From assembly GCA_027943245.1 (NCBI GenBank), contig JANDJZ010000117.1, positions 61,655 to 125,654 of the forward strand: 64,000 nt of DNA, written 5' to 3'. The translations under genes and the position numbers were made by a program. Positions within the stretch are counted from its first letter, which is position 1, and every line of letters begins with the position of its first letter. Under the pieces are notes generated by a model, which was given only the letters and a program-made list of their open reading frames with translations, was not told the DNA's origin and searched no databases. Shown here piece after piece: positions 1,408 through 64,000 of the stretch. Origin of the DNA: Acanthamoeba sp. SK_2022b (lineage: Eukaryota; Discosea; Longamoebia; Acanthamoebidae).

Positions 1408-1535
1408 GCCCACAGGAAAGAACCGTTGCAACCAAACGCAATTTGTGTATTTTGTTAAAATAAAATAACAATTAGTAGGCTTGTCTGTTATTTGATTCAA
1501 TTCGTACAAGAAGCGGCCTGTTCAGTCTTTAGAAG

Positions 1536-3062
1536 ATGGAGCAGAGGAGGTTCTCCTTCCCGTCGTCGTGCCCAATACCTTCGTCGGATCCGCTCTACAA
1601 GTTGGCGGAAGGGAGGGAGCTATCTCAACAACTTGAGGGACTGTGTGGGATGAAGAACCTGGGGCAGGCCAAAACAAAGCTTCAGGGCATCCACAGAGAG
1701 GCCGACGAATTCCTGTCCTACGTCGTGCGATCGTTCAAGCTCGACTGGCAGGCCGCCTTTGTCCAGTCGATGGTCGATCTCGTTCTGGAAATGCAAAACG
1801 TTTCGGCCCACATCACCCGATTGATGCAGAACTTTGAACACTACATCCTCTTCTCCGTACCCACCCCTTATCCTTCCCTCAACTCCAACTCTTTCCTCTT
1901 GCAAGTGGTGATTAATCGTCAGTCTCTGAGCGTAGGAGCGACATCGACTGAACGTGGCGACCAACTCACTCGGCTTCTTGGGCGTCCTTCCTCCTGGTAC
2001 CTGCCGTTCCTGCACCATCACTGTCACCATCATTGCCATCGTCGTTTACGTCGTTTCTACATGTGTGTGCGTCGCACAACTGGCATCGTGTCGTGTGTGC
2101 CATCTCCCAGAGATACTGCAGCACATCCTCCAGTTTCTGGGGCCGAAGGAGCTCCTGCGCCGCGTCCCTCCGCTCAACCGACATCTGAACGAACTCACCC
2201 ACGACAACGCCTTGTGGAAGTCCATGTGCAGGTTCGACCTACCTCGCCTTCTTCTCTCCAACTGTGCTTGATCGTGACTCTTACACTACGTCGCCGATGG
2301 CCGTCAGGAAGCACATACCCTCGCATCCCGTTGAGATGGAGTTCTGGTTCCTCAAGCGCGTGGAGAAGGAAGCGCTGCTCAATCAAGGCGGCAAGCTGGG
2401 CAAGCACCATAGCCGCCTCAACTCGGCGCGCTCGCGTGAACGCGCGTTCTTGCCGTCGCAGGCCTGTGCCGACTCGGAGTGCAGCCCGGACGACGACACG
2501 CGGGACGACAACTGCGCAAGCAGCAACGACGACGCCGTCATCGCCTCAAACATCAGAAGCAGCAACTGCAGCAACACCAGCGGCATGATCGAGAACGACA
2601 GCGACAACCACAGCAACCTCAGTAGCAACAGCAACAACAGCAACAATGACCTTGAGGACCGGGAGGAGCGCGCCTCCGCCAACGCGATTGAGATGCAATC
2701 GACGACAGGCGGCAGCGCAAGCGAGGCGGTCTCCAGCAAGAGGAGGGACAGGGAGCGAAACCATCCATTCTACAAGGAGGAGAGCGACAAGTCGTTCCTG
2801 TGGGGCCGCGGCGGGTCACTGGGCGCGTCGTCGTCCTCGGCCCTGGTGTCGTCTGACTCGGACGTGGCCGCGGCCCAGCCGCCCAAGATCAAGAGCGGGT
2901 GGCGCGGCGTGTTCCGCAAGTACCACCAGTTGGAGCGCAACTGGAAGGAGGGCAACTGCGCCGTGAAGACCCTGGTGTCACGACGTCGCGTCTACTGCAT
3001 CCTCTTCTCCGAGGAGAAGCAGCTGCTATGGAGCGGCAACGCCAAAGGTTATACCCTTACCG

Positions 3063-3123
<61 letters not shown>

Positions 3124-5060
3124 CTGTGTTTTATGATGAATTTGACTACGACAACGCTGCGTTGTGTGTTTGGGTTTGATTGTCGTTTTGACTTTTCGTG
3201 ACCCCGCAGGGACGATCAAGCGGCTGGACCTGATCAACTACTACCCACTGCGAGAGATCAAGGCGCACGACTCGGCCATCAATTGCCTGCAGACGCTCGA
3301 GAACTGCAACACGTCGTGGGACGAGGAGAACATTGCCTACCGAAGTCGATCCCGGCGAGGGTAATTATTGTTTGCTATTGGTTCAGTGCAATTTAGTGCT
3401 TTTTTAATTATTTATTTGACACGATTCATTTTAAAACCTACAAATAATAACAATGATGAATCGGACTTACCTTACAGGGATCAAGACCACGTCAAGCAAC
3501 TTAAGTCGAGTCGAGAAGAAACGCGCGAGGAGGCGGCCGGGCTCGTGCCGCCCAGCAACGACTGCAACGATCTTCTCTTCTCGTGTTCCTCCGACAACAC
3601 CATCAAGGTCTGGCGGCAGAGCATCGTCTCCGACGAGCCGCTATCCGTTATGAGCGAAGGTGGCCCTCTTCTATCCTCGTTTATTCACGACATTTATTAT
3701 TTTATTTATTTTATTTTTTTGATTATATTAATCTTAGATGTTCAGCGCAAGGAGGCCACCAAGGCCCCGTGCAAATGATCAAGCTTTGCGACGACGGCCA
3801 CAAGCTCCTATCCTGTTCTCTGGACCAAACCCTCAAGCTCTTCGATGTGGACACATCGACGTGTATTGCCACCCTCAAGGTAGAGCCGCCTGGCTTCATA
3901 GCCGTCGATTCCCGCGGCACATGACTTACAACGCTTTGACGCCCTGTCGTGATCATCGTAGGATACGACCGCCGTGCGGTGTGTACAGTTGGACAAGGAG
4001 ACCGGGTGTATCATATCAGGCGGCAGTGATGTACGTGCTTGTCCCCATTCATTGTTGGCCGAGTCAGTGGTTGCGACGAGAGCACATCACATCGCCACAG
4101 GCTAATGCTTGTGTACGCAATCTCAAACGCGTGCAGGGGATGATCAAACTGTGGGACCCACGACTCAAGGGAACGGGCGACTACGCAGCAGACTCGAGCG
4201 GGCCAGTGGCCTGTGTGTACAGAATCCCAACAGGTAACCTTTCCGGACCAGCGAGCTTTATAATAATAATGATAATTATTATTAATAAATAATTTATGAT
4301 TGGAATGTCATTCTCGGCGGTCAGGACTGGGCAAGGTGATGTGCCTACAAGCCAACAAAGCCAAGCTCTTCGTGGGCGGCGACAGTGACCGCAAACACAA
4401 CTTCCCCATTTTCGTCTACAACCTTCAGAAATTGACTGGCACGACTCCTCTCCTCTCGCTCGTGCGTGCGTGCGTGCGGCATGTCACCAGCGCTTATCGG
4501 CCGAGGCTCATCAACGCGTTGCCGCATGGACGTACAGGTGTGGTGCGGCACTACGACAAGACGCTGATCCCATGCAGCTCCTCGGACTCCTACGCCGTCC
4601 TCAAGGAGGCCGAGTTCATGGGCCACAGCGACCGCATATGGACGCTCCAGGCATCCCTGGGGCGACTCGTGACCGGTGCGCCCACTGCTCCGTTCCCTTT
4701 CCATCAGGTTTGCCTTCGCTGACCTCAACGCACGCATGTCCGCACGCGCGCACGCAGGCTCGAGAGATGGCAATGTGCGAGTGTGGAATTACAGCCACTG
4801 CCCTAACGCGACCGAGAGCGTGGACAAGAAGGAGTCGGGCAGCTACATCTTGGGCAAACCCCACCAAAGGTAACACACATAACAGATGCACACATAACCA
4901 ACCGGAGAGCTCACCAAGTGACTCAATGCCATTGTGTATTGGGGGGGGGGTGGCCTCCATCGCCAGGCACTCGAACTCAATCTATTGGCTGCAGTTCTCG
5001 TCGACGCGCATCGTGACCGCATCGGCCGACCACACCATCAAGATCTGGAACTTTGCCTGA
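1536..5060 (+). CDS. F-box/WD40-repeat protein
   Basis: The gene starts at the ATG at 1536, which opens an N-terminal helical region of about 107 codons (to about 1856). An F-box follows (LPEILQHILQFLG near 2100-2230, ending in ALWKSMC). A long Ser/Asn/Asp-rich linker exon (2321-3048) ends in the YHQLERNWKEGNC segment typical of the F-box/WD40 junction. From 3211 a chain of short exons encodes about seven WD repeats, with signature ends such as SSDNTIKVW, SLDQTLKLF, GMIKLWD, RDGNVRVWN and SADHTIKIW. The TGA is at 5058-5060. By family knowledge it would be a substrate receptor of an SCF ubiquitin ligase: the F-box binds Skp1 and the propeller binds a (phospho)degron. The exon or exons between 1857 and 2110 are uncertain. 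The intron at 3050 holds a (GTT)n tract. The substrate is unknown. Confidence 0.85.
3064..3122 (+). repeat. (GTT)n microsatellite in an F-box/WD40 intron
   Basis: About 20 uninterrupted GTT units lie inside the intron that follows the GNAK codons of the F-box/WD40 gene. The tract falls between a GTTATA donor and a CCCGCAG acceptor, so it is not coding. Confidence 0.9.
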
Positions 5061-5412
5061 GCGCGCCTCCCCCGTTCAGCCACCGCCTCGCCTAGGCAAC
5101 AAAATGGCCAATGGTCATGACCGCACATAGATATTCTATTAAAAAAGCAATGTACAATGGTTGCGTCTTGTAAAATATCTGTCACTGACAAACCTCACGC
5201 CGCCCAAGGCAATGCGCAGATCACAACAACGGTCACAAGCACACCGCCATGCTCTCACAGCACTGCCAGTCTGTGCTTCCAGACAGTTTCAGATGACAAC
5301 AGGGAACTTAAAGTTGCCCAATACCGAAGCCCGGGCTTTTCGGTGAGCAGGGCAACTGCGCCAACTGGGAAAAGCTGAGGAAGGACTTCTTGTGCGCACT
5401 GTTGGAAGCGAG
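5061..5412. other. Intergenic stretch between the WD40 and armadillo genes
   Basis: This holds the 3' end of the F-box/WD40 gene and the leader of the next unit. An AT-rich ATTAAAAAAGC-type segment near 5138 could serve for polyadenylation. A short open frame (about 5310-5450, reading GLFGEQGNCANW) looks protein-like, but the second armadillo copy lacks it, so I do not call it a gene. Confidence 0.4.
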
Positions 5413-5800
5413 ATGGAAGGAAGTGGGCGAGTGCCGCGTGTGAGCACCACCAAGGAGAGGCTGGTGGCGTCCAACCGCGACGACAGCCGTGCGGAGCGGG
5501 AGTTGGTCGACGAGACTGTTCTCGCACTCGCCACCTGGAACAAGAAGGTGGGTGAGGGCGGCGGGCAGGGCGGGGGCGAGGACGAGGGCGATGAAGATGA
5601 TGAGTACCTCATCGGCCCACTCAGCAAGCACGCCCCCCCAAAGACACAATGTTTTTCTCGCTTGCTTTTCTACAGTTCTTGTTTTATTCATTAACATCAG
5701 CAACTACGCGCAGGCTCGGGTTTCAACTCTTCTACCCTTGGCTCGACCCTGTCAAAGGCACCGTCCTGCTGCTGCTTGCACCGCCATACGAGCTGACATT
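5413..5800 (+). other. Conserved upstream ORF/exon pair ahead of armadillo gene 1
   Basis: An ATG at 5413 opens a frame starting MEGSGR, followed by the charged block TTKERLVASNRDD and ending in a KHAPP segment near 5640. After a short AT-rich gap a second block (5715-5800) reads LFYPWLDPVKGTVLLL before a stop. Both blocks recur with mostly synonymous changes in front of the second armadillo gene (13211-13540), which argues for selection on protein. I could not join them cleanly to the armadillo frame that starts at 5836, because a stop lies just upstream of that ATG. They may be a separate small two-exon gene or a 5' exon with an unusual junction. Confidence 0.4.
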
Positions 5801-5835
5801 TACCTGACGCCATCACGCGTTCCATCGCGGCCATA

Positions 5836-6181
5836 ATGGCAGAGGCCAACAAGTTCTACTTTGCCAAGCAGGAGGGGGCCTTGGAAACGCTCATCTCGTT
5901 GGTGGAAAACACCAAACATAGCCACATCTTGCGCTACTACGCCATCGGCTGCCTCTGGAACTTTGCCTCCAACGGTACCGTGCTTCTTGAGCCGCCGATG
6001 ACGGCCAGTTCTTTCACCTTCTGCCGATTTGACGGGCCCACAACAGACGAGCTGTCGCGCATCGTGCTCGAGATGGGAGCTCTTGAGGCCATGTTCGCAC
6101 AGGTGCGGTCGAACGACATCGACCTGGTCTCATCGGCCATTGGGTGCCTCTGGGGCTACCTCGAATTCGGTAAGTGTCATC

Positions 6182-6246
<65 letters not shown>

Positions 6247-7403
6247 ATGGATCGAGAGATTTAATACGATTGCGTGTCAGAGGACGTGCAGGAACAGGCG
6301 GTTATGGTGGGCGTGAGCGACACGCTGATCGATTTGGCCGGCCACCTGGACCGGGTATCCGAGTCGGAGCACACTTGCCTTTTCGGCTGCCTCCTCTGCC
6401 TCGCCTTCAATCGTGCGCGCCCTCCCCCGCTCTCCCTACTGGTTTCTTGTGTAGCCATCAATTTAACTCCCCCGAGACCAACTCGGCTCGCCACACAGCC
6501 AAATGCCGGCGGCGTTTGGTCGAGCGCAATGCCCCTCAGAAGGTCATATCGGTGGTGTCGTCCACACAAGACAACATGCTCCGCTACGTGGGCGTCATTT
6601 GCCTGGCCCTTCTCACGCTCGATCGTACCACCACCTCCATTTCCACCGCTCCAGCCATCCAGACAGCACGCTTGCTCGCGGTTCGCAGAAACCTCACACA
6701 CAACACACAACGCACAACACACAACACACATACACGACAGCGGAAAGCGATGAGCAACTGTTGGAACTGGGCGTGCTGATGCACGTCAACGATTTCCTCG
6801 ACGCTCTGCGACCACAAGTATGTCTCGGAGCGTAGATAATTTTTTTAATTTTTGGTTTTATCTATTTAATTTATCATCAATTTTTGATACTTATCTTTCT
6901 TCTGACAGGACATTGCCAAGCTGGATGAGGAGCAGGGAATGGTGTGGAAGTTCATTCAGCCGTTCTTTTCGCTCATGTCGTCGCGCCACGCACCGATACG
7001 TTGGCTGAGCGGCTTCATCCTCGCCACGCTCGCACAAACGCGTACGGCTGTCCTTCCTTGCCAGAGCTCAAGCGCCAACTCAACTGTGCAAACTCAAACA
7101 ATGCCTACAGCTGTGCACAGGCCGCTGTTTAAGGACGAAGAGTTGGTGGGCGATCTGTTAGCCATTCGGATGACGACGCACGACGAGCGGCTGCAGGGCT
7201 ATCTCGATATAGCGCTCTCCTTCCTGCGACCGCTGGGCATTGTGGAGGCGCCCTCGCTCCTCTCGCTCAGTGCCTACAGTGTGCGTAGCAGGATCCTGCT
7301 CACGAATGGCGCCGACCAACTGCAGCAGCCGATCGAGCCAGTCGACACGAGCCTTCTGCCACAGCACCTCCACGAACGCTTTGCCTTCTCCTCGCCCCTA
7401 TGA
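5836..7403 (+). CDS. Armadillo-type helical repeat protein, copy 1
   Basis: The start is the ATG at 5836 (MAEANKFYFAKQEGALE). The exons follow in one frame: LRYYAIGCLWNFASN, then DELSRIVLEMGALEAMFAQV, EDVQEQAVMVGVSDTLIDL, RRLVERNAPQKVISVV, LMHVNDFLDALRPQ, GMVWKFIQPFFSLMSS and a last exon from about 7120 to the TGA at 7403. The alternating amphipathic helices with Asn and Gly at turns (AIGCLWNFA, AIGCLWGYLEFG) are the pattern of armadillo/ARM-like repeats. Such proteins are usually binding scaffolds; no catalytic motif is visible. The intron at 6173 is a (GT)n tract. A close paralogue lies at 13568-15149 and a broken one at 7513. The partner and pathway are unknown. Confidence 0.75.
6184..6244 (+). 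repeat. (GT)n microsatellite in an armadillo gene intron
   Basis: About 30 GT units directly follow the GTAAGTGTCATCACT donor region. The homologous intron in the second copy (13931) has only a few scattered TG steps, so the tract expanded after duplication. Confidence 0.9.
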
Positions 7404-7451
7404 GCCCTCATAGCAGAACCTCCTCTATTATCATTTGACCATCCATAAAAC

Positions 7452-7860
7452 TTGGTGAAGAGTGAAATTTGTTGCCCTGACATTTACACTATCTTGACAC
7501 GTTCCACCATCCATGGACATCATGGCAGAGGCCAACAAGTTATACTTTGCCAAGCAGGAGGGGGCCTTGGAAAAGCTCATTGCACTGGTAGACAACACAC
7601 AAAGCCCCCTTGTGCGTTACTACGCCATCAACTGCCTCATGAACTTTGCCCCAATGGTGCGGTGGTTCTATCTGTGGCCTGCTGCTGAGCCACAGATGAT
7701 GGCCATTATTCTTGACCCAGTGCTGTCCACTGGTGCACATATGCTCAAGTGGGAACTCTTGAGGCCATGTTGCACAGCTGTGGTCAAACAATCCCAACCT
7801 GGTCTCATCGGGCATTGGCTGGGGCTACCTTGAATTTGGTAAGTGTCATCATTGTGGGTG
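7452..7860 (+). pseudogene. Truncated, CpG-decayed third copy of the armadillo gene
   Basis: From about 7464 the DNA matches the start of the armadillo gene at 13568: same ATG context, same EANKLYFAKQEGALEKLIAL block, then the second exon to its GTAAGTGTCATCATTGTG donor (about 7840-7855). It then stops; later exons are missing and a TGG/GTG-rich tract follows. Against the 13568 copy most changes are CpG to TpG or CpA: TTCGCC to TTTGCC, GCGCTG to GCACTG, CTCGTG to CTTGTG, CTCGAG to CTCAAG, CTCGAATTCGG to CTTGAATTTGG. One G/C loss in the second exon shifts the frame. It has no function that I can support as protein. Confidence 0.8.
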
Positions 7861-7919
7861 TGACCATGCATGTGTTTCAACAAATGCTGCATGTGTTGTG
7901 TGCACATGGGTGGTGTTGC

Positions 7920-9005
7920 TTAATTTTGCAGAGGACTGACTTGTGATGATTTTGTGGGGTGTTGATGCTGTGGAGGTGTTGTGGTGATGTGGTGGTGATG
8001 TGGTGATGGTGCTGGTGTGGTGGTATTGTGGTGGTGTAGTGATGTTATGGTGTGGTGATGTTGTGGTGCTGTGGTAATGTTGGTGGTTAAGTTGTGTTGT
8101 TTTGATTTCATGTTGTGGTGATGTGGGGAGTGTGTGATGTGGTGGTGAAGTGGTGATAGCGATGGTGTGGTTTTGTGGTGATGGTGTGGTGTTGTGGTGG
8201 TGTTTTTGTGGTAATGTTCTTGAGATGTGGTGTTGTTGTGGTGTTGTGGTGGTGTTGGTGGTGTTGTGGTGTTGGTGGTGTTGGAATGTTGTGGTGGCAG
8301 TGGTGTTGTTGGGTATTTTGATCTTGTGGTGTGGTGGTTGTGGTGATGCTGTGACACTGCCCTACAGTTTCCAATGCCACTGTAGACAAGTCAGGTGCTG
8401 TCTACAGAAAAAGAGTCACTGTCTCATTTTTCCTGAACACCCAGTTTGGTGATGTGGTGGTGGTGTTGTGGTGGTGTGGTGACATTGGTGGTGTGATGTT
8501 GTGGTGGTGGTGGTGGTGGTGGTGGTGGTAGTTTGTGAGTTGGTGGTGGTGGTGGTGGTGGTGGTGGTGGTGGTGGTGGTGGTGGTGGTGGTGGTGGTGG
8601 TGGTGGTGGTGGTGGTGGTGGTGAGGTGGTGGTGGTGGTGGTGGTGGTGGTGGTGGTGGTGGTGGTGGTGGTGGTGGTGGTGGTGGTGGTGGTGGTGGTG
8701 GTGGTGGTGGTGGTGGTGGTGGTGGTGGTGGGGGGGGTGGTGGTGGTGGTGGTGGTGGTGGTGGTGGTGGTGGTGGTGGTGGTGGTGGTGTGAGGTGGTG
8801 GTGGTGGTGAGGTGGTGGGGTGGTGGTGAAATGATGTGGTGAGTGAGGTGGTGTGGTGGTGAAGAATTGGTGGTGGGTGAGTGGTGGTGGTGAGGTGGTG
8901 GTGGTTGTGGTGGTGTGGTGGTGTTGTGGTGTGGTGGTGTGGTGGTGGTGTGGTTGTTGTGGTGGTGGTGTGGTTGTGGTGGTTGTGGTGGTGGTGGTGG
9001 TGATG
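7920..9005. repeat. Degenerate GTG/TGG-rich low-complexity tract
   Basis: About 1.1 kb made almost only of TGG, GTG and TGGTGT steps, with near-pure (TGG)n runs at about 8500-8530, 8540-8623 and 8630-8790. One normal island sits at about 8350-8450 (CACTGCCCTACAG...). Only one CpG occurs across this tract (8160). Long open frames on both strands (poly-Val/Trp/Gly on plus, poly-Pro/His/Thr on minus) are by-products of the repeat. The G-rich plus strand could adopt unusual structure. Confidence 0.9.
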
Positions 9006-9560
9006 TGAGCAAGGTCTATATGCTGCCCTTCCAGAAGAAGCTGGCCACCATCGGGGACAGCCAACAGATCTACAGTGGCCTGAGCTGCTTCCTCCCCACC
9101 TACTTGGCGCATGCCTGTCAGGTAGTCGTCACGTGGCAAGTTGTCACCCATTCATCATCCTCACCCTTGTCATTTATCATCACCATTATCACCTTCGTCT
9201 TTGTCTTCTTCAGGACTCAGACCCACTGAAGATCGTGGCCAACAAGTTTATGTGGGTGCTGTCCTTCAAGTGGATCACCATCGGCGTGCCAAGATGGAGA
9301 GTCATCTACCTCGTCTACAACTCCTACGCCCTCGCCAGCGTCACCCCACCGAGTTCGTCCCCCTCCATCGTCATCACCATGAACGAAGAAGAAGAAGATG
9401 CAGAAGAAGCAGAAGAAGATTACAATCACCTGTTACATGGTATCAATTAATTTTTTCATTAACCACAGCTTTCCGCGGCCCCGCAACACAATTCGTGCCT
9501 CCGAACTGAAGCTTCTGGTCTCCTTGGCAAACTTTTGAGGCCCTTTGGCTTCAAGCTCGG
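9006..9560 (+). other. Unassigned coding-like fragments after the TGG tract
   Basis: Two pieces look like exons. One is about 9010-9120 (YMLPFQKKLATIGDS), followed by a GTAGTCG donor. The other is about 9215-9350 (DPLKIVANKFMWVLSFKW and WRVIYLVYNSYALASV), preceded by a CTTCTTCAG acceptor. After them come a GAA-rich run (9383-9420) and a stop. I recognise no family and see no credible start. They may be the 3' remnant of a gene whose 5' part was replaced by the repeat tract. Confidence 0.3.
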
Positions 9561-9581
9561 AACTTTATACCAGTACCAGAG

Positions 9582-11305
9582 ATGATGTTGATGGTGGTCG
9601 TGGTCCTTTTGCTTGCCCAAGCGCAAGTGGACGCGACTTGCTCTAGCCCCGGAATCTTGAGCGGGGCCTCCTCAACTTGGCAATACGAGAATGCGACCTA
9701 CGTGGCCCAGGCCTTTCAAGTGCAGAACAACCAGACCACGCTCTCCTCCATCGCCATCGGGCTCATAAACAGCAACAGCATCCGTGCGCTTTTTTCCACC
9801 ACTCCTTCTCTCTGTCTCATCGGTAACATCATCTTGATGCTTGTTCACGCAGTTGATATCGCGCTTGGCGCGGCTGAGGTCCGCTCCAACAACCAGAGCA
9901 GCAGCACACCTGCCAACGGGCCTGCGCTCATCTCGTTCAACGTGTCCGACGTCCTTTTGCCCTACAGAGCCGCCAACCAGACGCAGAACTACTGGGTTTC
10001 CGACGCCAACAACGCCACTCTCTCCGCCGACCTGTACTGGATGGTGTTCTACATGCCCGACATGAGCATCCTCCTGGGCCTTTCCGATACCACGAAGGCT
10101 TCTCCGATCCAATACGTCAACGATGCTCTCTTCACAGATGGCAGCGGTTGGGACTCCTTGGACTCCTCGATCTTCTTGACTATTCTGGGCTGCGTAAGCT
10201 CGCCGTCGCCGTCGCCGTCGGTGTCGCCCCCACTGTCACCCTCGCCCTCGCCCTCGAGTTCTCCTATGTCCTCGACGTCGCCGGTGGCTTCACCATCTTA
10301 CGCGCCGCCACAGCAAGGCGAAATCATCGCCACCACCAACGTGACCGCGACCTTTGACGAGCTAGCGCCTTCCGTCAACGTGTCGGCCGAGGGCGTGGCC
10401 AACGCTAAAGCCAGCTTCATCGATCTGAAGCTGGGCAACACAATCGTGTCCGCCGGGGACGTTGGTATGTTCTTTCTTTCAACTGGTCCTTTCAAGTTGC
10501 CAGCCGACCTCTTTCTGGATAGATCTTTGATTCGTCAACCTTTCTTGTAGGGTACGACGTGACTAAGTCTGAGACCCAGTCGGGCGACGGCAAACCGATC
10601 TCAACAACCTATGCGTACGCCGCCCAGATCAGCGTTATCAACACGACCGTGCAACAGGCGTTCACGTTTGCCCACGCCAGCACGTCAGGCAACTTCTTCG
10701 GACTGCCTTACGACCTGCCCAAGGGCGTGGTCAAGTGGTCCGTCAACTTGACCACCTCCTCCGGGTCCGCTTCAGCTCTCAACTCTGGCCTAGAGCTGCG
10801 ATATGGAGTGGTATCAGGCGCTACCAGAGCTCTGCCCGTGGTCCGATTGCTCAACACGCCCAAGGCCAACATGACCACCTACTTGGTGCGCCTCGACTCG
10901 TCATCATCAGCAGCCATCGTGACCGTGGAAGTCTTTGACGTGGCTCTCGTCGACGGTGCCTTTGCCGCCATCACGCACGACGTCATGTTGATCGACGTCA
11001 GCTCCTCGGGAACGGGGTCAGTGGTGCTGGTGTTGCGGTTCCCGCCGTTCAGCGAGACCGTGGCGTACGACCCAAGCATCGGCCTGGGCGCGCTACTTGG
11101 CTCCTCAAGCAGTGATGGAGGTGACGGGACATCGTCAGCAGTTGTGGTGGGCGTGGCGGTGGCGGTGCCGGTGGCCGTGGTGGCTGTGGTGACGGGGCTC
11201 ATGGCGGGCGTGGTCGTGGCCTGGTGGCGCAACAGATCGAGAAATGACAGAGGCAGTGTGAACTTCAGCCTCGAGGAGAACGATGAAGCTGAAGAGGCTC
11301 TCTAG
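9582..11305 (+). CDS. Type I membrane glycoprotein with Ser/Pro stalk
   Basis: The ATG at 9582 starts a clear signal peptide (MMLMVVVVLLLAQAQVDA). The ectodomain is rich in Asn-X-Ser/Thr sites (NATY, NQTT, NQSS, NVSD) and is split by a Ser/Pro stalk of repeated SPSP units near residues 205-250. An intron of about 87 bp (GTATGT...TTGTAG, 10464-10550) separates two ectodomain halves; the second repeats some beta-rich features of the first. Near the C-terminus AVVVGVAVAVPVAVVAVVTG and the following residues form one membrane helix, then a basic stop-transfer (RNRSRN) and a short acidic tail ending at 11305. It is most likely a surface or endomembrane glycoprotein. I cannot place the ectodomain in a named family. 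A possible 30-nt intron at 9822 is unresolved. Confidence 0.7.
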
Positions 11306-13165
11306 ATCTTCCTGGCTCCTACAATCCTTTTAACCATTCAATCTTTTCTTTTCACAAACGTTTTTTCTTTAAATATAAAACATCATTAGGATTATGCGTA
11401 ATCAGGAATAACCCTGAGTTCGTTGAGGTGATTGGGGCACTCCTCCAAAGCTAGCTAGGCAAGCCACCAAGCTTGCAGCAGTAGAACTGCTCAATCATCA
11501 TGAGGTTCCCACTCCTCATCGAGCAGTCGCGTGGGAAAGAGCCAGGGATGCCATCATTGGGCGACCTGGGTCGGATACAGTGGACATCTCACCAGTTGGG
11601 CCTCGATGGGCGACGTCCGCCAAGCAAGAGAGCCTGGGCATTCTGCACCACGTCTGCCAGGCCCATATGCTCCACATTGGCGCTCAGCTGTCGCATGAGT
11701 AGAGCAGGGGTCAGCAAGCTGCGAACAACTCACGAGCTCATGCTTCAGAGAGGAACAAGAATAGTCGCACCAGGGCTGTCAGAAGAATGGCTAATCGCGT
11801 TGCGGTTAGGGCAAAAGGGCTTGGCGCTGGCTGGACTGGCACCCAGCAAAGGCAAGCCATGGGAACGTCAAGTACTACATGCAATGGCTACTTACAGAAA
11901 GCAGAGTGCTAAGTGTCTGCAGTGACTGAGATGGGGCATTGATTATCAACACAGAGCAGACTTGACTCCCCAGCCTTCCCTTCTTCACCTACAATTTCTG
12001 ATCAGGCAGCCAAGGAAGCCAAGCAGATCAAGCAGGCCAACCATGGCTTGTTAGAGCAGGAGGAGCTGCTTTGTCATCAGCAGGTATACTGCTCTCTTTA
12101 TTGCTTCTTTTCATATTCATCTTGCTAATCACAATTGCAAGAGCAGTTGTGGTGATGCCTTCATCCTCTGAATGCCTTAAGCTGACAGACCAGAGCAGAT
12201 CTCATCCCATTCAAGCTGTAGAGACTGCTGACATGGAGATGGTCTGCCCCAAGTGCTGGATCCAGCTCAGCAATGCCCTGGCCTACCCTGGTGCAATCAT
12301 CCTGCCCAGCTTTGAGAAAGGTCTACTCTTGAAGCTGCAGTGGATACTCTCAGGCCCAAACCTAGAATGCATATACAGGTTCAAGATCAGTGGCATTTTA
12401 AGTTACTCTACTGCATCTAGCGTCTTCTCCACTGGGGTCTTCTGATATTAATTTTAACATAGAGTCCATGATGGCTGGGGTAAATTTATTCCAATAATAT
12501 TGTTGTTGCTAAATAACCTGAAGATACACAGGATGTTGACCATGTATGTGTATATGATCATATGGCAATGTCAAGATGTGAGAAAAACTGGTGTTATAGG
12601 ACATGGGTTCCCAAGATTTAGCTCCTCAAAATAGGTTTTAACTCAATATCTCCCATTTTGGTACAAAACATGTTGATTCATTTTTTCGGCAAATCCACAG
12701 ATATCTATCTATTTTTCTCATATCAAAAGATGTCTACTTAGATATCCAGCATTATTTATGTAAACAATGCAGATTGTGGCCATTTCTCCAATGGTAAAAC
12801 TTGTGATCTTAGGACTGCAAGTGATTTGATTTGGCAGAAGAGGATCTGAACAGCACACCAGATGACCAGATGGCAGGCAATGTTGTGGTGAAGAAGGTGC
12901 ATGAGCATCACCATCAGCATGGCTCATGCATACATGCAAGGAGTTGTTGAGAAGGGTTGATGATGATGATGGCACATTTGTGCTGTCTTTTTTGGTCTTT
13001 ACTACCATCTTTCTTGCCCCTGAAGCCATCCTTCTCCCCTTGTAAAATCACCTTTTCCCCTCCTTCCACCAGTTTTCTCCAAACTCCAACAACTCTCTCT
13101 TTCTGTCCCTCTATTTTGCATTTTTCAAGGGTTTCTTTGGCCTGTCATTAATTTACTTGTTTAGG
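11306..13165. other. Gene-poor stretch; CpG desert from 11868
   Basis: No convincing gene is visible. The part at 11500-11865 has an open frame of 141 codons with normal CpG density but no recognisable motif. From 11868 to 13165 I find only two CpG dinucleotides (12421 and 12687), although parts such as 12180-12400 are about half G+C. TG and CA are abundant. Frame relics such as 12071-12445 (one hydrophobic stretch, CPKCWIQL) may be a decayed coding sequence. It looks like an old inactivated element or gene that lost its CpGs. Confidence 0.6.
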
Positions 13166-13210
13166 CGTGAGCTTTAGGCCCAAGTTGAGGGGACTTGGGG
13201 TAGCGGCGAG

Positions 13211-13540
13211 ATGGAAGGGAGTGTAAGAGAAACAAGTGTGAGACTGCCACCTACAAGCATCACCAAGGAGAGGCTGGTAGCATCCAACCGCGACGACAGC
13301 CGTGCGGAGCGGGAGTTAGTTGATAAGGTTGTTTGCGTACTCACCAACTGGGACCAGAGGATGGGCAGCAATCGTATCCTTGATATCAGCCCACTGCGCA
13401 AGCACGCCCCCCCCCACAAAACAGTTAATATATTAGTTACTGCTGCTTATTAATTGTTATTCATACATGCAGTCTTGCATTTGAACTCTTCGTCCCTTGG
13501 CTTGAGCCTGAAAAAGGCACTGTCCTGCTGTTGCACTGAC
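13211..13540 (+). other. Conserved upstream ORF/exon pair ahead of armadillo gene 2
   Basis: This is the counterpart of 5413-5800: an ATG at 13211 (MEGSVRE), the shared TTKERL-like block VASNRDDSRAERELVDK, a PLRKHAPP end, then after a gap FELFVPWLEPEKGTVLLL before a stop. The second block differs from the first copy mainly at third positions. The link to the downstream armadillo ATG is unresolved. Confidence 0.4.
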
Positions 13541-13567
13541 ATTTACAAAAGCTTGACGCGTTCCATC

Positions 13568-15149
13568 ATGGACGTCATCGCAGAGGCCAACAAGTTATAC
13601 TTCGCCAAGCAGGAGGGGGCCTTGGAAAAGCTCATTGCGCTGGTAGACAACACACAAAGCCCCCTCGTGCGCTACTACGCCATCAACTGCCTCACGAACT
13701 TTGCCTCCAACAGTACCGTGGTTCTTTCTGTATTCTGAGCCGCAGATGATGGCCATTATTCTTGACCCAGTGCTGTCCACTGGCGCAATGTGACTGGCCC
13801 ACAACAGACGAGCTGTCGCGCATCGTGCTCGAGTTGGGAGCTCTTGAGGCCATGTTCGCACAGGTGCGGTCGAACGATCCTGACCTGGTCTCATCGGCCA
13901 TTGGGTGCCTCTGGGGCTACCTCGAATTCGGTAAGTGTCATCATTGTGAGTGTGCCTATGCGTGTGTATAAACAAATGCTGCATGTGTTGCGTGCATGTG
14001 CATGCGTGATTGGGTGGCGATTTAATTTTGAAGGGCGTTGTCAGAGGACGTGCAGGAACAGGCGGTTAAGGTGGGCGTGAGCGACACGCTGATCGATTTG
14101 GCCGGCCACCTGGATCAAATCAACGAATCGGACCATACGTGCCTTTTCGCCTGCCTTCTCTGTATTGCCTTCAACCGTGCGCGCCCTATCTCTCTCTCTC
14201 TCTCTTGCTCCAGCGCTGATTTTGCTGCGGATCGGTGGCTATCGATTTGACTTGCCCCACAGCCAAATGCAGGCGACATCTGGTCGAGCGCAATGCCCCC
14301 CAGAAGATCATACCGGTGATGTCGTCCACGCAAGACAGCATGCTCCGCTACGTGGGAGTCATTTGCCTGGCCCTTCTCACGCTCGATCGTACGTTAATAC
14401 GGCGCACGGCCACCTCTGTCTTCACTGTTCCAGCCAGCCAGCCAGCACGCTTGCTAGCGATTTGCGCAATCAGAAGGCTCATATACAGGATCACACACGC
14501 GTCAGCGGAGAGCGAAGAGCAACTGTTGGGGCTGGACGTGCTGACGCACGTCAACGATTTCCTTGATACCCTGCAACCACATGTACGCCTGTATGGTTGG
14601 TGCAATCGGTGTGCGTGTAGAATTTACTTGCCATTTTTTACTCATATGTTGCAGGACATTGCCAAGCTGGATGCTGAGGCGGGAGTAGTATGGAAGTTCA
14701 TTCAGCCGTTCTTTTCACTCATGTCGTCGCGCCACGCATCGATACGTTGGCTGAGCGGCTTCATCCTCGCCACGCTCGCACAAACGCGTACGACTGTCCT
14801 TCCTTACCCGTGACACCGCCCAAGTGGTGGCGCGCAAACAAACGACGCATACACAGCCGTACACCAGCCGCTGTTCAAGGACGAAGAGTTGGTGGGCGAT
14901 CTGTTAGCCATTCGGATGACGACGCACGACAAGTGGCTGCAGGGCTATCTTGATACAGCGCTCTCCTTCCTGCGACCGCTGGGCATCGTGGAGGCGCCCT
15001 CGCTCCTCTCGCTCAGTGCCTACAGTGTGCGTAGCAGGATCCTGCCCGCTATCGACGACGATCAATCGCAGCCGAGCAAGTTAGCTGGCAAGAACAGCCC
15101 TCTGCCACAGCATCTCCACGAACGCTTTGCCTTCTCCTCGCCCTTGTGA
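13568..15149 (+). CDS. Armadillo-type helical repeat protein, copy 2
   Basis: The start is the ATG at 13568 (MDVIAEANKLYFAKQEGALE). Exon order matches copy 1 throughout: RYYAINCLTNFASN, DELSRIVLELGALEAMFAQV, EDVQEQAVKVGVSDTLIDL, HLVERNAPQKIIPVM, LTHVNDFLDTLQPH, GVVWKFIQPFFSLMSS and a final exon from about 14873 to the TGA at 15147-15149 (ending HERFAFSSPL). Frames, intron positions and length are kept, so it looks functional. It differs from copy 1 mainly in a short insertion near the C-terminus (PAIDDDQSQPS). It has the same inferred scaffold role and no catalytic motif. The direct orientation shared with copy 1 and the 7.5 kb remnant implies tandem duplication. Confidence 0.75.
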
Positions 15150-57446: not shown

Positions 57447-58325
57447 TTAGACTTCGCCAGAGCTACCTACGCGAAGCGCTACGCCGTACCTCTGGTTTGG
57501 TGGGCGGGGGATATTATTGACAACGAGGGCGACGGCCAGCATGACCAGCGCGCCAGCCACAGTGGTGAGAACGTAGTAGTAGCCCGCCTCTACCATCTGA
57601 CCCGATCCCAGGACCGCGATGATCGCGCTCGCCCCTGGGCATTCAACCGCCTACCATTAATCCTAAAGGCAAGCAACAAGCGGTGAGGGGCTAGAACACA
57701 GAAGGGCCACACCTCCGGGCGGGTGCAGTGTGCAGGTGAGCTGCATGGCCGCAATGGAAATCGACACCGCCAGGGCGGCCGCCAGCGGCACCGAGACGTC
57801 AGCGAGCAGCTTGTGGCACGTGACTCCAATGATCGAGGAGATGGCGTGCCCGCCAACGAGGTTGAGCGGCTGCGAGAGGGGCGAGGTGGGCGCCGCGTAC
57901 AACAGTACCGCGGTGGCGCCGTAGCTTCCTGTGGCGTACGATCGTCATGCCCGAGAAAACGAGTGCAAGGAGAAGGAGAAGAGAACAGGCGTGCCGATGA
58001 GGAGGACGACGTCGCCCGGCGAGTAGAGGTAGTCGTCGAGGATGCCCACGAGGAGGATGCCCAGGAAGGAGCCCACGAGCGACGTACACACGACCCATAA
58101 CGGCACGCGCCGGCTGGCGAGGCTCGGCCGTCGGTGCGTCTTGCGGCCGGCCCACCGCCGGACATACTTGCGCGGCAGCGCCACTCCCCAGCAGCTGGCC
58201 CGCTCTTCGCACTCCGCCTGCTCCCATAGATTAAGTTATAAAATGAATAAAAGTAAGAGCGTGCTGGATAGGTTATGGCGTGGCACCTTAGGCTGGAGTG
58301 GCTGCAGAGGGGTTTGCTCGTTCAT
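57447..58325 (-). CDS. HPP-family integral membrane protein
   Basis: Minus-strand ATG at 58325 (MNEQTPLQPLQPK), then a short intron and an exon starting QAECEERASCWGVALPRKY. Membrane helices: LWVVCTSLVGSFLGILLVGI, GDVVLLIGTPVLFSFSLHSF, then the family core SYGATAVLLYAAPTSPLSQP, NLVGGHAISSIIGV, AAALAVSISIAAMQLTCTLH and HPPGGV, which carries the name-giving HPP motif. The C-terminal exon adds VLGSGQMVEAGYYYVLTTVAG and a final helix VMLAVALVVNNIP, with the stop at 57447. HPP proteins in plants and algae include plastid nitrite transporters; a transport role is plausible but not shown here. The splice after HPPGG near 57670 is approximate. Confidence 0.82.
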
Positions 58326-58487
58326 CTTTTGTTTGGTCTTTAATATAATTAATTAATTTTTTGATGCTTCTTTTCATATTCCTTAACCTTTTCTTCCTTG
58401 CACAACAAATCCAAAAATCTGATATTTGCAGAATGATTTACATGCCAGCCGTCACCTTGATTCCGTCCTGCTACCTGCTTTCCCCTC

Positions 58488-59084
58488 TGCTAATGCATCA
58501 TGGATGACAAGCAGAGTGAAGCACAAGCACTCTTTGCCTGGCCAGCAGACTTTCCTTGCCAGTACACCTGGAATTCTGCTGTGCAGCAGCATGGTGAAGA
58601 GCTCATCAGATACCCAGCACACACCTTGCCTTCAAGGATTGGAGATACACTTTTTCATGCTATCACCCATGCAATAAACGCAGCCCCATGCAGAGAAGGA
58701 GGAGCATGCTCACCCACCCTTCCTCAGCCACCATCCATCTCCCCCAGCCCACCATCCTAGAGGTCTCCCCTGATCCTCCAGAGGAGCTCCAAAGAAGCAA
58801 GCTGAACAGGATTAGAGCCCCAGACTGTAATAGCGACATGATTTGGCAAGAGCAAAGCATTTTTGCAGCCAACATGCTCCACCCAAACACAGCAGACACA
58901 CGGTGGTCTGGCTGCTCTCCCAGACCCCCTCACTCCTATGATCTATAAACAAAGCTTTGGCAGCAGTGAGACTGGATGCAAACAAACGTGGATGGCAGCT
59001 TTTGAATGTGGATTGCTGCCAAAGCATTTCTCCAAGGAACGCTTCTTGATGTTCCCACGTGATATGGAGCAGCTGTGGCAGGAG
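58488..59084 (+). pseudogene. 5' part of a disrupted P-loop (Crinkler/RHS-like) gene
   Basis: The left flank of the retroelement reads in one frame for its last 80 codons, ending ERFLMFPRDMEQLWQE at the insertion point. Further upstream are relics in other frames (58500-58745, starting MDDKQSEAQALFAWP; 58748-58948) separated by stops. CpG is sparse here, with many CA and TG steps. This frame continues exactly into the right flank at 63775. The FLMFPR...LW segment just before a P-loop resembles the N-terminal side of RHS/Crinkler-type NTPases. I infer one host gene, now split and mutated. Confidence 0.55.
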
Positions 59085-59429
59085 TGTGACGTGGGTTACC
59101 TGCGTCCCAGTCCATTCTCCTAAAGAGGGCCTAGGCCTTCTTTAGGAGATACTGGCACCTGCATCACGTTTCCAGAATAATGGCGACCAATTTGGTGCCG
59201 CCAACCGACTCCAAGGCTCCTGACGTGGCACAACATCAAGTCGACACGCCAAGTATAAAGGGCATCCATTTGTGAGGAATGGATGGCAGACTCTCTCTCT
59301 CTTCTCTACTGTCTCTATTCACACAAACAACCTCAATACACATGCATTCTCTCCCACTCTCTAGCAGTGCTACTGCGTGCCTCCTTTAAAGCTCCTCTCT
59401 CATCAGGCATGAATGTGATGTGTGTGACA
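59085..59429 (+). repeat. Left LTR, CpG-depleted
   Basis: 345 bp. It carries a TATAAAG box at 59254-59260 and a 34-bp palindrome at 59116-59149. Compared with the right LTR, about 29 sites have CpG changed to TpG or CpA. Confidence 0.92.
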
Positions 59430-59449
59430 TTTGGCAACAATGGCTAGCC

Positions 59450-60447
59450 GATGCCAAAGAAGGGCAAGAGGGCAGCCAAGGCCGTGGAGGAAGGAGGAGG
59501 AAGTGGTTTGGAGGGGGAGGGCTCGTTTGTTGACAAGGCCAGTGATGATCAGTGTTCAGAGGCCATGAGGAGCAGTTTTGCCTCATCTTCATCCATGAGA
59601 GTGGTGTTGGGGGGTGGATTGGGCCCAGTCGACACCAATGGGGAGGAGAATGAAGAGGTGAAGGAGAAGCTGCCTGTGCCCACGCCGGGCAATGTAGCAA
59701 CCAGAAGTGTCGACCTGCACATCCTCCTCAAGAAGCTGCTGGTCTACAAGGGAGGGCATAGCAAGGACTTCTTCATGTGGTACAATGAGCTGGAGGCTCT
59801 CACCAGCTTCCATCATCAGTGATGAAGCCCTTGCCAGGTACCTCCCATGGGCGCTCAAGGGGGCTGTGAGGCAATGGCTCATGCTGCAGCCAGCAACAGT
59901 GCAGCGTAGTGGCAGCCAGGCGCTGTGAGCACTGGCCAAGACCTACAGCCACCTCACGATGAACCAGCTCAATGAGTGGATCCACAGTGCACACCAGCAC
60001 AAGGACAGGAGCGTGCACAACTACTGGTATCGGTTGCAGAGTGAGGCCAACCGGTTGCCAGGGACCTTCAGCAATGGCCAGCTGGAGGGATGGTGGAGGG
60101 CAGGTCTTTGGCCCAACCTCAGCACCTTCATCCTCCAGTACGCCAACAAGCTGTTCCTGAAGCAGCTGCAGTGGCTGCAGACATACAAGCGAGAGATGGT
60201 GCACCACAAGGCACACATCATCTCCACAGTGCTGGAGCCCAAGAGCATGCCAGTGACAGTCATTACCACCAACAGCAAGCCCCCCAAAGGTGCCAACAGC
60301 CAGCCAGCCAGAAGAAGGCGAGGGCCAGGCTGCTGGGAATGTGGCCAGATGGGTCACATAAGAGCCTGGTGCCTGCAGCAGAAGGTGAAGGCAACAACAC
60401 CAGCCACCAACAGCCCCAACGGGGCAAAGGTGGGTCCATCAAACTAG
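59450..60447 (+). pseudogene. Retroelement gag region with CCHC zinc knuckle
   Basis: Opens at about 59451 (MPKKGKRAAKAVEEGG) and reads through DLHILLKKLLVYKGGHSKDF, then needs a frame change near 59815 to continue with DEALARYLPWALKGAVRQWL. After a TGA at about 59926 it goes on as MNQLNEWIHSAHQHKDRSV and RLQSEANRLPGTFSN to the nucleic-acid-binding knuckle CWECGQMGHIRAWC at 60337-60378. Frame 60447 closes with TAG. This is the capsid/nucleocapsid part of the element; it is broken. Confidence 0.75.
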
Positions 60448-60559
60448 TTGAGGCCATGGGTGTGGGCAGCCTGGTGGTTGCTAGCAATGGAGGGCCCACC
60501 AGGAGGAGTTGGGGAGGGGCAGAGAAGTGCCCCAGCAGGGTGGATTTGATGGTGGCTGG

Positions 60560-62470
60560 CTTAGGTATGAGCAGCCACCTGGGGTGCATCATGAGCATCA
60601 GAGCTCATGATGGCACGCCTCTCTACATGCCAGTGCAGATTGATGGCAAGGAGGTGTATGCCTGTGTGGACATGGGTGCTGGCATCTCAATCATCGCACA
60701 GGACGTGCTCAATAGGCTGGCCAGGACTCAGCAGGTGTGACCCTACAAGGGGCCATCCCTGCATGGAGTTGGCATGCACAAGCTGGACCCAGTTGGGGTC
60801 GTTGAGACCTTGGTCCAGATTGGTGCGTCCACCCAGAGCCTGGAGCTTGCCATGGTGTGCAGTGTGCAGATTGGGGTGCTCCTGGGTAATGATGCCCTGA
60901 AACGCTTCAGTAGTGTGGGCATTGACTGGCTGGATGATAGCCTGGCTTGAGCCTATGGCCTCCATCCCAGTCCTGGCCATCTTGGCCAACAACAATGAGG
61001 AGCGCGAGCACGTGGGCGATGACAACGATGGTGGACCTGATCTGTTGAGCAGAGGAGGGCTCTTGAGTGAGGAGCTGGAGGCACTCATATGGAAGGCTGA
61101 TGCAACCTCACCAACAATGAGCGTGAGGAACTAGGGCAGTTTCTGAGGAGGCATGAGGGCATGTTCAAGGCGTCCCTCGCCCCCCCAGGCGCTGCCTTGA
61201 TGATCCCACATGATATTGACACACAAGGCCACACGCTGAAGTTCACTACCGCCTCTCAGTGAAAGAGAGCAAAGTGATGTGTACTGAGACGCGCAAGCTT
61301 TGGCAGAGTGGCATTGTGTGGCCATTGCAGAGCCTGTGGTTGTTCCTGGTCGTCCTTATCCCAAAGAAGGATGGGACGCTATGGTTCTGTGTTGACTACT
61401 GCGATCTGAATGCTGTCATGAAGAAAGATGTGTACCCTCTCCCTCTGATTGACAATCTGCTGGACTTGGTCCAGGGCGCCCAGTTCAGGTCCAGCATGGA
61501 CTTGATGACTGGGTACTGGCAGATCCCAGTCAAAGAGGAGGACCAGGAGAAGATGGCCTTCATGATGCCCAATGGACTCTTTGAGTTCAACGTCTTGCTG
61601 ATGGGCCTGTTGAACGTGCTGGGGACATTCCAGCACACATGGAGTGGCTGCTCCAGGGACTAGTGTGGATGAGCTGCCTCATCTACATCGATGACATCAT
61701 CATCTTCTCTTGAACGTTCACTGACCATCTCCATGACCTGGTGCATGTGTTTGACTGCCTGCAGCAGGGCAACATGTGCCTCAAGCCAGTGAAGTGCTCC
61801 TTCTTCCAAAAGGAGCTTGCCTTCTTGGGGCACATCCTGAGCAACAATGGCCTGCATCTGGATCCAGCCAAGATTGTGGCAGTGAGAGACGTCTGAGTGC
61901 CACAGTGCAGCTTCCTTGGGTTGGCGAATTACTACTGGTACTTTGTGCCAGACTTTGCAGGTATCACCAGCCCACTCTACTGGCTTACAGCTAAGGATGT
62001 GCCATTCAAGTGGACAAACGAGTGCCAGTGAGCATTCAAGGCGCTGCGAGATGCGCTCATGTCAGCACTGGTGCTGTCCCAGCCAGTAGCCAACTGGCCC
62101 TATGTACTCCACATGGATGCATCAGGGCACGCTGTTGGGGCTGTGCTGATGCAAGTGGATGAGGTGGGGCGTGAGTGGGTCATGAGCTACGCCAGCCGCA
62201 CCCTGTTGAAGGCTGAACAGAACTACTCGACAACACACCAGGAGTGTCTGGTGGTGGTGACGTTTGTGAAGGAGTTCCAGCACTACCTTCATGGATGACA
62301 CTTCCCCATCGTCATGGACCACAACCCACTCCAGTGGATGGCAATGCAGCACGACCCCACCAGTCAGCTGGCATGGTGGTCGCTTGTGTTGCAAGAGTTC
62401 AATTTCGATATCCAGTACCAGCTGGGCCACGACCAATGCCAATGTGCTGACAAGACTGCCGTTCAAGGAT
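60560..62470 (+). pseudogene. Retroelement protease-reverse transcriptase-RNase H region
   Basis: The protease site reads CVDMGAGISII where DTGA/DSGA is required; the ATG codon at 60672-60674 is ACG with one C-to-T change at CpG. The RT region has IPKKDGTLWFCVDYCDLNAV, SMDLMTGYWQIPVKEED, the catalytic YIDD at 61684-61695 and HILSNNGLHLDPAKI. RNase H reads LHMDASGHAVGAVL, THQECLVVV and IVMDHNPLQWM. TGA stops at about 60738, 60948, 61711, 61896, 62029 and 62296 fall where relatives have Arg or open sequence. RT catalytic residues survive, but the reading frame does not. Confidence 0.85.
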
Positions 62471-62879
62471 GAGGAGGAGCAGCTGATTGTGGGCGTCATG
62501 ACCAGGGGTCAGTGTGGTGTTGGCCGCATGCACTACAGCCACACCAAGGGACTGGTGGGTTGGAGAACAGTGGAGACGCCCACTGATGTGCCAGCTGTCT
62601 CCATGACAATGCCCAGGGGCCAAGATGACAAGAAGGTGGGAATGGGCCAAGTTGTGGAGGCTGAGGTGGAGGCCGTCATGGCTGGGCCAGACCAGTCCAC
62701 CAGCATGGACAATGATGAGGAATATGGTGAAGAGGACCAATCTGATTGGGCAATGGAGGCGCTTGGGGAGGAGGAGCTGGGCAACGCCAATGTGGGCGAA
62801 GGGGGACTGGGCCTGGAGCTGGTTGAGGGGGGGAACCTAAGGTAGAGCAGTGGAAGGATAAGGATTTAAGTGTGATCAT

Positions 62880-63425
62880 GCGCTACCTTGAAACCCATCT
62901 GTTGGCATGGGGCACCCAAAGCACTCCTCTCCAACAGAGGCACCATCTTCTTGAGCAAGGTGCTGCAGGAGGTGAATGTGTACCTCCATGTGCAGAGGCC
63001 AGCTGCCGCAAGGCTGAACCTTCAAGCTGGTGAAGCTGTGGATGGGCCTGTACCGCGTCACAGAGCTCCTCAGCAAGCTCATGGCACAAGTACAACACAT
63101 CAACAATCCCCACAACATCCAGAAGGTCAATGTGCGATGGCTCAAGCTGTACAATGATGGCGACTCCCTGGCCGACTCACTTGAGTGACTGTGGCAGCAG
63201 CAGGACGACATTGAAGAGCTCTAGATTGAGGCCATCCTCAACAACAGACTTCAGAACGGACAGCGCCAGTACCTGCTTCGTTTCAAGGGCTTCACCAAGC
63301 TATGATACGTGGGTCGACCGTGAAGACATCAACGCTCGCTGATGAACTTCTGCCCCGCTACGAGCAGAGTCGCAAATCTAGGACGGTGGCAAGGGCAGCT
63401 GGGGCTAGAGACTCGCAGGGAGGGA
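62880..63425 (+). pseudogene. Retroelement integrase remnant and chromodomain
   Basis: Only a short core piece of integrase is seen (HGAPKALLSNRGTIFLSKVL, about 62904-62963), then the C-terminal LYRVTELLSKLMAQVQHIN segment (63048-63105) and VNVRWLKLYNDGD. The catalytic DDE core and the HHCC zinc domain are absent; 62470-62880 has an acidic frame without integrase features. The chromodomain follows: IEAILNNRLQNGQRQYLLRF (63220-63280), then, after a frame change, YDTWVDREDINA. Chromodomains steer integration toward methylated histone H3K9 chromatin in known chromoviruses. CpG density rises within this segment. Confidence 0.75.
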
Positions 63426-63770
63426 TGTGACGCGGGTTACCTGCGTCCCGGTCCATTCTCCTAAAGAGGGCCTAGGCCTTCTTTAGGAGATACTGGCGCC
63501 CGCGTCACGTTTCCAGAATAACGGCGACCAATTCAGTGCCGCCGACTGACTCCGAGGCTCCTGACGCGGCACGACGTCAAGTCGACACGCCTAGTATAAA
63601 GGGCATCCGTTCGCGAGGAACGGACGGCAGACTCTCTCTCTCTTCTCTACCGTCTCTATTCGCACAAACAACCTCAATACACACGCATTCTCTCCCACTC
63701 TCTAGCGGTGCTACTGCGCGCCTCCTTTAAAGCTCCTCTCTCATCGGGCACGAACGCGACGCGCGTGACA
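63426..63770 (+). repeat. Right LTR, CpG-retaining
   Basis: 345 bp with the same TATAAAG box (63595-63601) and palindrome (63457-63490) as the left LTR. It keeps nearly all CpGs that the left LTR lost; only two sites look decayed here and not on the left. Confidence 0.92.
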
Positions 63771-64000
63771 GGAGCTCGAACAGCAACTCTTCCAAGTCAT
63801 AATTGGACCAAGCGATTCAGGAAAATCGTGGGCATACTACCTTGCCCTTGGACGGCAGGAAAAACTTCATCAGGTTGTCGCCAACTTGAACTACAACGGT
63901 ATATCAGATCTCAAACGTGCCACAGGACGTTCCGGATTCACAGAGGCTGTTATTAATCTGTGTAGGGCGAAGCAAGCTCCACTTGTAGTAATCAACGATC
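63771..64000 (+). CDS. Continuation of the split P-loop (Crinkler/RHS-like) gene, runs off window
   Basis: From the duplicated GGAG the host frame resumes at 63775 and stays open to base 64000. It contains FQVIIGPSDSGKSWAYYLAL; GPSDSGKS fits the Walker A pattern GxxxxGKS. YNGISDLKRATG and LCRAKQAPLVVIND follow, the last being a likely Walker B strand. The order (FPR...LW, short spacer, GPxxxGKSW) is typical of RHS/Crinkler-type STAND-like NTPases. CpG content is normal, unlike the left flank. Function as a protein requires the element's removal; as it stands the gene is interrupted. Family placement is inference. Confidence 0.6.

Follow-up and report, generated by a model that had tools for sequence, protein, structure and literature searches.

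In fungi, repeat-induced point mutation (RIP) concentrates transitions in repeats, favours CpA and is linked to cytosine methylation, and in mammals the mutation rate of methylated CpGs is about ten times that of other sites. Methylation has also been described in the amoebozoan genus Acanthamoeba. According to a recent study of A. castellanii, CpG methylation is enriched on long interspersed nuclear elements (LINEs) and long terminal repeat (LTR) elements, particularly younger copies, as well as on silent genes, and 966 hypermethylated windows make up 3.4% of the genome (Sarre et al. 2025, PMC12344493). Giant-virus insertions are described as hypermethylated and silenced in Acanthamoeba (Blais et al. 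2025, PMC12210455), and for mammals sloping shores have been described, in which methylation near a retrotransposed sequence depends on how far away an unmethylated stretch lies (Grandi et al. 2015, PMC4509998). Here, we analyse a frame-broken Ty3/gypsy-type LTR retroelement in a window of 64,000 nt (the whole stretch of DNA under study) from Acanthamoeba sp. SK_2022b (GCA_027943245.1, contig JANDJZ010000117.1, positions 61,655-125,654, forward strand). The two LTRs of this element differ almost exclusively by CpG losses, nearly all of them on the left side, and the limit that cytosine methylation once reached is likely still recorded in its DNA, as in a fossil.

This locus resembles the A. 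castellanii system (PMC12344493) in that the organism is amoebozoan, the affected context is CpG, LTR elements are among the preferred targets there together with LINEs, and DNMT1 is present. Unlike that study, in which methylation was measured, the window holds its likely mutational trace, in another and likely related species, and with an edge inside a single element. Kinship with Acanthamoeba is suggested by a searched protein of the window, whose best named hit is A. castellanii Neff (61% identity over 68% of the query). The main text of the A. castellanii study contains neither "CpG content" nor "CpG depletion", and "deamination" occurs once, in a reference title. The giant-virus study (PMC12210455), whose main text lacks the string "deaminat", differs in that it concerns virus insertions, the likeness being silenced and hypermethylated foreign DNA. 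In contrast to the mammalian shores (PMC4509998), which are graded, the trace in the window takes the form chiefly of a step, perhaps with a short shoulder. Unlike under RIP, the window LTR pair shows CpG losses only, and a CpG-rich copy of the repeat persists elsewhere in the genome. No published report of CpG asymmetry within an LTR pair was found among the papers listed, as judged by title or abstract start, and nothing on RIP in Acanthamoeba, as judged by title.

The LTRs of a retroelement are identical at insertion owing to reverse transcription, and the pair can thus serve as an internal control of the same age and sequence. In the window element, the LTRs lie 4.3 kb apart and are bounded by a short target-site duplication:

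59085..59429, plus strand: left LTR, 345 bp, TG...CA ends, 10 of 39 ancestral CpGs retained
63426..63770, plus strand: right LTR, 345 bp, TG...CA ends, 37 of 39 CpGs retained
59081..59084, plus strand: left copy of the target-site duplication GGAG
63771..63774, plus strand: right copy of the target-site duplication GGAG

An ungapped alignment of the 343-bp core (59087-59429 in the left copy, i.e. the 345-bp LTR minus its initial TG) contains 32 differences. All but one fall at lost CpGs, with changes to both TpG and CpA and on both strands, as is characteristic of the decay footprint of 5-methylcytosine (5mC); the sole non-CpG difference is an A/T transversion (59251/63592), and the alignment holds no other transitions or CpA/TpA-type changes between the two LTRs. 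The losses are one-sided: 28 CpGs were lost in the left LTR alone (17 to TG, 11 to CA) and one in the right LTR alone, and at one site that accounts for two differing positions (TTTGG/TTCAG) the same CpG was apparently lost in each LTR on opposite strands. CpG loss thus amounts to 29/39 in the left and 2/39 in the right LTR, and retention of 10/39 versus 37/39 differs with a Fisher p of 1.8e-10. A preceding sequence-only reading of this DNA had counted 29 decayed sites on the left, two on the right and one A/T change, and had described the pair as differing almost solely by CpG transitions; base-by-base alignment reproduces these counts, including the single CpG lost on different strands at TTTGG versus TTCAG, and many non-CpG changes are not seen. 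With the nearest relative of the element (contig C756) as the outgroup for polarising CpG loss, a CpG stands in at least one C756 LTR at 23 of the 28 left-only sites and in neither at the other five; at the doubly lost site both C756 LTRs have it. In raw terms the window LTRs have diverged by 9%, compared to a non-CpG divergence of about 0.4% (1 site of ~267), so that ordinary LTR dating would mislead here. Because CpGs were lost on both strands without other transitions, the pattern points to 5mC decay as the mechanism.

The sequence-only reading had placed this decay mainly at one end of the element, almost only in the left LTR. This part has to be revised, as the decay covers positions 58284-63252, takes in some 800 bp of flank on the left side, the left LTR and nearly the whole interior, and ends about 165 bp before the right LTR, which is the exception. 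Specific targeting of the left LTR was therefore rejected, since CpG depletion extends over the interior and the left flank as well; what had been read as one end targeted looks like one end that escaped.

58284..63252, unstranded: CpG-depleted domain, 97 CpGs in 4969 bp, observed/expected ratio (o/e) of CpG 0.27, from two-state segmentation, profile and shuffles
63242..63279, unstranded: right domain edge (2-log support range), best split 63261/63264, from a changepoint on C756-polarised CpGs

In 200-bp steps, CpG o/e is 0.06-0.6 from about 58.3 to 63.2 kb versus ~1 across most of the window; inside the domain TpG/CpA are raised and GpC is not depleted (500-bp steps), and any such segment above 300 bp arose in one of 20 block-shuffled windows. 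Polarised with C756, the fraction of CpGs retained is 7/31 for the left LTR, 61/286 for the interior up to 63180, 11/22 for 63180-63425 and 29/34 for the right LTR, the bulk of the interior thus equalling the left LTR. The changepoint, fitted to 363 of the 380 C756 CpG columns (17 with gaps or other outcomes were dropped), separates 70/319 CpGs kept before 63261/63264 from 38/44 kept after, with a log-likelihood gain of 35.6 versus at most 8.9 in 500 permutations. A two-step fit adds 3.3 log units over the single changepoint, and a short shoulder at this edge is possible. At the other end, the domain begins about 50 bp past the open piece at 57945-58235 (minus strand), next to which lies an exon of an HPP-family gene. 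Before the insertion the two flanks adjoined each other, and now the left one is depleted and the right one CpG-normal. The insertion may thus have taken place at the edge of an already methylated domain; the left flank has no relative for polarising. Strictly post-insertion decay is what the LTR comparison itself captures, and part of the interior decay could be older.

The outgroup element (C756:11754-22111) has identical LTR ends and its own 4-bp duplication, CGTG, and aligns to the window element in blocks at ~84-92% identity. It is CpG-rich throughout (500-bp o/e 0.65-1.23), and its own LTRs, both CpG-rich, differ by three CpG losses, two other transitions and two gap columns. Non-CpG divergence from C756 is 17/271 for the left and 15/259 for the right LTR of the window element; 22 differences from C756 are common to both LTRs, 25 are confined to the left and three to the right, and at two further positions both LTRs differ from C756 but unlike each other. 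Derivation of the right LTR from a C756-like family member was rejected, given the similar non-CpG divergence and the 22 common differences. Since the two LTRs have diverged from C756 to a similar degree outside CpGs and are flanked by the GGAG duplication, the element looks like one insertion whose right end escaped decay.

We consider it probable that the left part of the locus was under CpG methylation that ended at the edge before the right LTR, and that 5mC subsequently decayed to T. Host DNMT1-type enzymes would have kept the CpGs methylated across left flank, left LTR and interior, 5mC would have turned into T over time on either strand, and the right LTR and the DNA beyond would have remained unmethylated. 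The right side would probably have been spared by lying in open, gene-side chromatin; the left edge likewise is near a gene, that of the HPP family. Suitable enzymes appear to be encoded in the genome. A search for DNMT genes, proposed with the sequence-only reading and performed here with PF00145 only, yielded DNMT1-like matches on two long contigs: the exon on C832 has DNMT1 as its best PDB match (E 1.5e-16) and a BAH domain nearby on the same strand, and a second DNMT1-related gene, on C265, also bears BAH. A third long contig, C421, encodes a DNMT2-like gene, and a candidate SRA domain is found at C1053 (E 4e-32). DNMT3, which is reported in A. castellanii (PMC12344493), was not identified here with the PF00145 search. 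The dcm/HhaI-like, bacterial-type methyltransferases on the short contigs C152, C44 and C231 were set aside as probably contaminant bacterial DNA, C152 being judged by reading its sequence. Many (CA)n/(GT)n microsatellites surround the methyltransferase exons (L047-L049) and appear as HTHT/CVCV runs in six-frame translations.

Further retroelement copies, drawn from 30 of 76 RVT_1 matches, were compared with regard to decay rate and strand. In the window LTR pair, CpGs decayed, per cytosine, 363 times as fast as non-CpG sites did per site (95% interval 65-14353, with one non-CpG event). The CpG/non-CpG ratio spans 9-126 in 27 overlapping retroelement pairs that are at least 94% identical, where older pairs include changes of the source lineage that lower the ratio, sorting on few non-CpG changes inflates the ratios of the closest pairs, and pairs share copies. 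The highest value belongs to the pair L018/L026 (126, 68-262), and the other five of the six closest pairs have ratios of 22-63. Strand usage in the left LTR is near balance (18 TG : 11 CA, p 0.26) and unclustered (15 runs versus 14.7 expected), which is what spontaneous decay predicts and agrees with the post-insertion, strand-symmetric decay proposed earlier. The whole window element likewise has no copy-wide strand bias (139:114, p 0.13); its 250-bp strand bins are uneven (p 0.009) and the runs test is not significant. Among the other copies, strand bias differs between copies (chi2 61.3, 19 df, p 2.4e-6; 22 copies in 11 disjoint pairs, of which 19 copies with at least five events were tested and three dropped), most strongly in L026 (5 TG : 28 CA), L040 (44:17) and L044 (9:26). 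Codon phase does not account for the bias, either in these three copies or across the five pairs checked, which were picked after the strings had been seen. With the copy-wide bias removed, strand concordance of neighbouring losses is high at 1-6 bp (11/13 pairs) and shows a slight excess at 300-1000 bp, with no increase at 6-300 bp.

Several observations weigh against a methylation boundary as the origin of the pattern. The ratio of 363 exceeds the roughly tenfold acceleration of mammals. A comparably sharp internal edge is absent from all 26 other retroelement pieces tested that have 30 or more family CpG sites, indicating that such edges are not routine here: the best internal break gains 6.5 log units versus 35.6 in the window element, and four pieces have an uncorrected permutation p below 0.05, these RT-centred pieces of about 2-4 kb being judged by siblings instead of an outgroup and thus with lower power. 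Near the edge (63180-63425), non-CpG divergence from C756 is just 1/189 versus 111/2963 in the rest of the interior, even though 250-bp bins elsewhere vary from 0.015 to 0.097. The contig stops 230 bp past the right LTR, leaving the right-hand context thin, and the C1053 SRA match contains stops, perhaps introns. Some of these points would fit a history in which the whole element was methylated and decayed and its last ~500 bp were later overwritten from a CpG-intact sister by gene conversion or recombination, or were misassembled. The abrupt edge, with a support interval below 40 bp, the existence of the CpG-rich C756 copy, the low divergence around the edge, the lack of such edges in the other copies tested and the residual assembly risk at the contig end all speak for it. 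However, the LTRs differ at one non-CpG site of ~267 and have 22 differences from C756 in common, so a conversion donor must be a same-age sister, and none is found among the matches listed, the best others reaching 84-86% identity with the left LTR and 91% with the right. GGAG on both sides (chance ~1 in 256) and the open frame across the join once the element and one GGAG are removed also disagree with overwriting or a misjoin, which we regard as unlikely.

A different question is whether methylated CpGs decayed slowly and spontaneously or in RIP-like or deaminase-driven bursts. The high ratios of the LTR pair and of L018/L026 would suit bursts, as would the copy-wide strand bias in other copies that codon phase does not explain. 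The LTRs, however, lack the mainly CpA-directed C-to-T changes typical of RIP, with zero CpA/TpA-type changes between them, the strands of the window element are near balance, even if its 250-bp bins are uneven, and copies have lost CpGs in part and to varying degrees (CpG divergence 0.12-0.53 in the pairs compared) instead of all-or-none, which speaks against a single burst. Bursts are thus quite improbable, and from the earlier suggestion of either targeted cytosine methylation or a process resembling RIP or methylation induced premeiotically (MIP, which methylates but does not mutate), methylation is kept as the best cause and RIP is not supported, given the lack of CpA/TpA-type changes and the graded loss. 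A bolder proposal is a methyl-CpG-directed mutator in this lineage, which would destroy methylated CpGs of foreign or repeated DNA in a strand-coordinated manner and tens to hundreds of times faster than other sites, and which active chromatin would block with near base-pair sharpness; we deem it a rather doubtful prospect. That no methylation was involved, with composition or selection keeping the region low in CpG and chance producing the LTR differences, is very hard to believe: part of the left flank (58201-58500) is indeed AT-rich, but the LTRs were identical at insertion and yet 31 of 32 changes are at CpGs and 29 of 31 CpG losses on one side, and GpC is not depleted in the domain where TpG/CpA are raised. 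Decay of 5mC up to a methylation boundary before the right LTR hence remains the preferred reading.

One-sided CpG loss is also found in a second place in the window, where a gene-duplicate piece (7470-7904) lost 17 CpGs and its paralogue (13529-13996) none, with four CpGs kept in both and three other outcomes. The piece 7470-7904 sits in a CpG desert (7395-9279) beside a long GTG-repeat tract. The desert at 11827-13288 consists at least partly of dispersed repeats (at least 59 genome matches), and that at 25203-25824 matches only itself in the genome, so that deserts are not all repeats. In another locus, L053 5500-7000 (C256:29500-31000), a CpG-rich island with a GC content of 0.69-0.87 lies directly between two CpG deserts.

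The remaining features of the element and its surroundings are as follows:

59430..63425, plus strand: interior of the frame-broken Ty3/gypsy-type element, without segments that the C756 relative has
61358..61839, plus strand: reverse transcriptase remnants (RVT_1, Pfam match), frames broken
62032..62295, plus strand: RNase H domain remnant (RT_RNaseH_2, Pfam match, E 5e-28)
62898..62999, plus strand: 102-bp block aligning to part of the C756 integrase-core match
63417..63425, plus strand: purine tract adjoining the right LTR, polypurine-tract candidate assigned by position
57663..58235, minus strand: HPP-family gene, with 57663-57944 matching TM_HPP (E 4e-27)
58284..59084, unstranded: CpG-depleted left flank, its single genome match being itself
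63772..63999, plus strand: right flank, 76 open codons up to the contig end, CpG-normal, its single genome match being itself

The assignment to Ty3/gypsy is based on the paired 345-bp LTRs with TG...CA ends and the short duplication GGAG, and on RVT_1 followed by RNase H (RT_RNaseH_2), with broken frames. C756 encodes Integrase_H2C2 and an rve match below the curated cut-off, both after RNase H. Of this integrase region the window element retains the 102-bp block, most of the matching segment being missing. Also missing is the stretch occupied in C756 by a nested RVT_2 (copia-type) element. This nested element has a long frame (L051 3289-7101), and the 131-bp repeat pair around it, probably its LTRs, differs at one position, a CpG loss. 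Together with the LTRs of C756 itself, this repeat pair makes up the set of LTR pairs compared besides that of the window element. Both LTRs of the window element carry a near-perfect palindrome of ~34 bp at LTR positions 32-65 (59116-59149 and 63457-63490), which matches itself on the opposite strand, and pieces resembling it are present at C362, C256 and C359.

When the element and one GGAG are excised in silico, an open frame crosses the join and continues for 75 more codons to the contig end, which suggests, without proving it, that the element inserted into an exon. The right-flank piece has a P-loop-like motif, as seen by eye, and a Pfam search of this flank gave nothing significant. The open piece 57945-58235 of the HPP-family gene has no Pfam match either, genome searches for paralogues of the two flanks returned each flank alone, and Rfam had 0 matches over the whole window.

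For the biology of this amoeba, the value of the LTR pair is that it makes two properties measurable from sequence, namely the position at which a methylation domain ended in the course of evolution and the degree to which methylation promotes mutation in an amoeba. If the mutator proposal were true, methylation would amount to permanent genetic erasure, and every CpG desert would be a fossil methylome readable from sequence alone.

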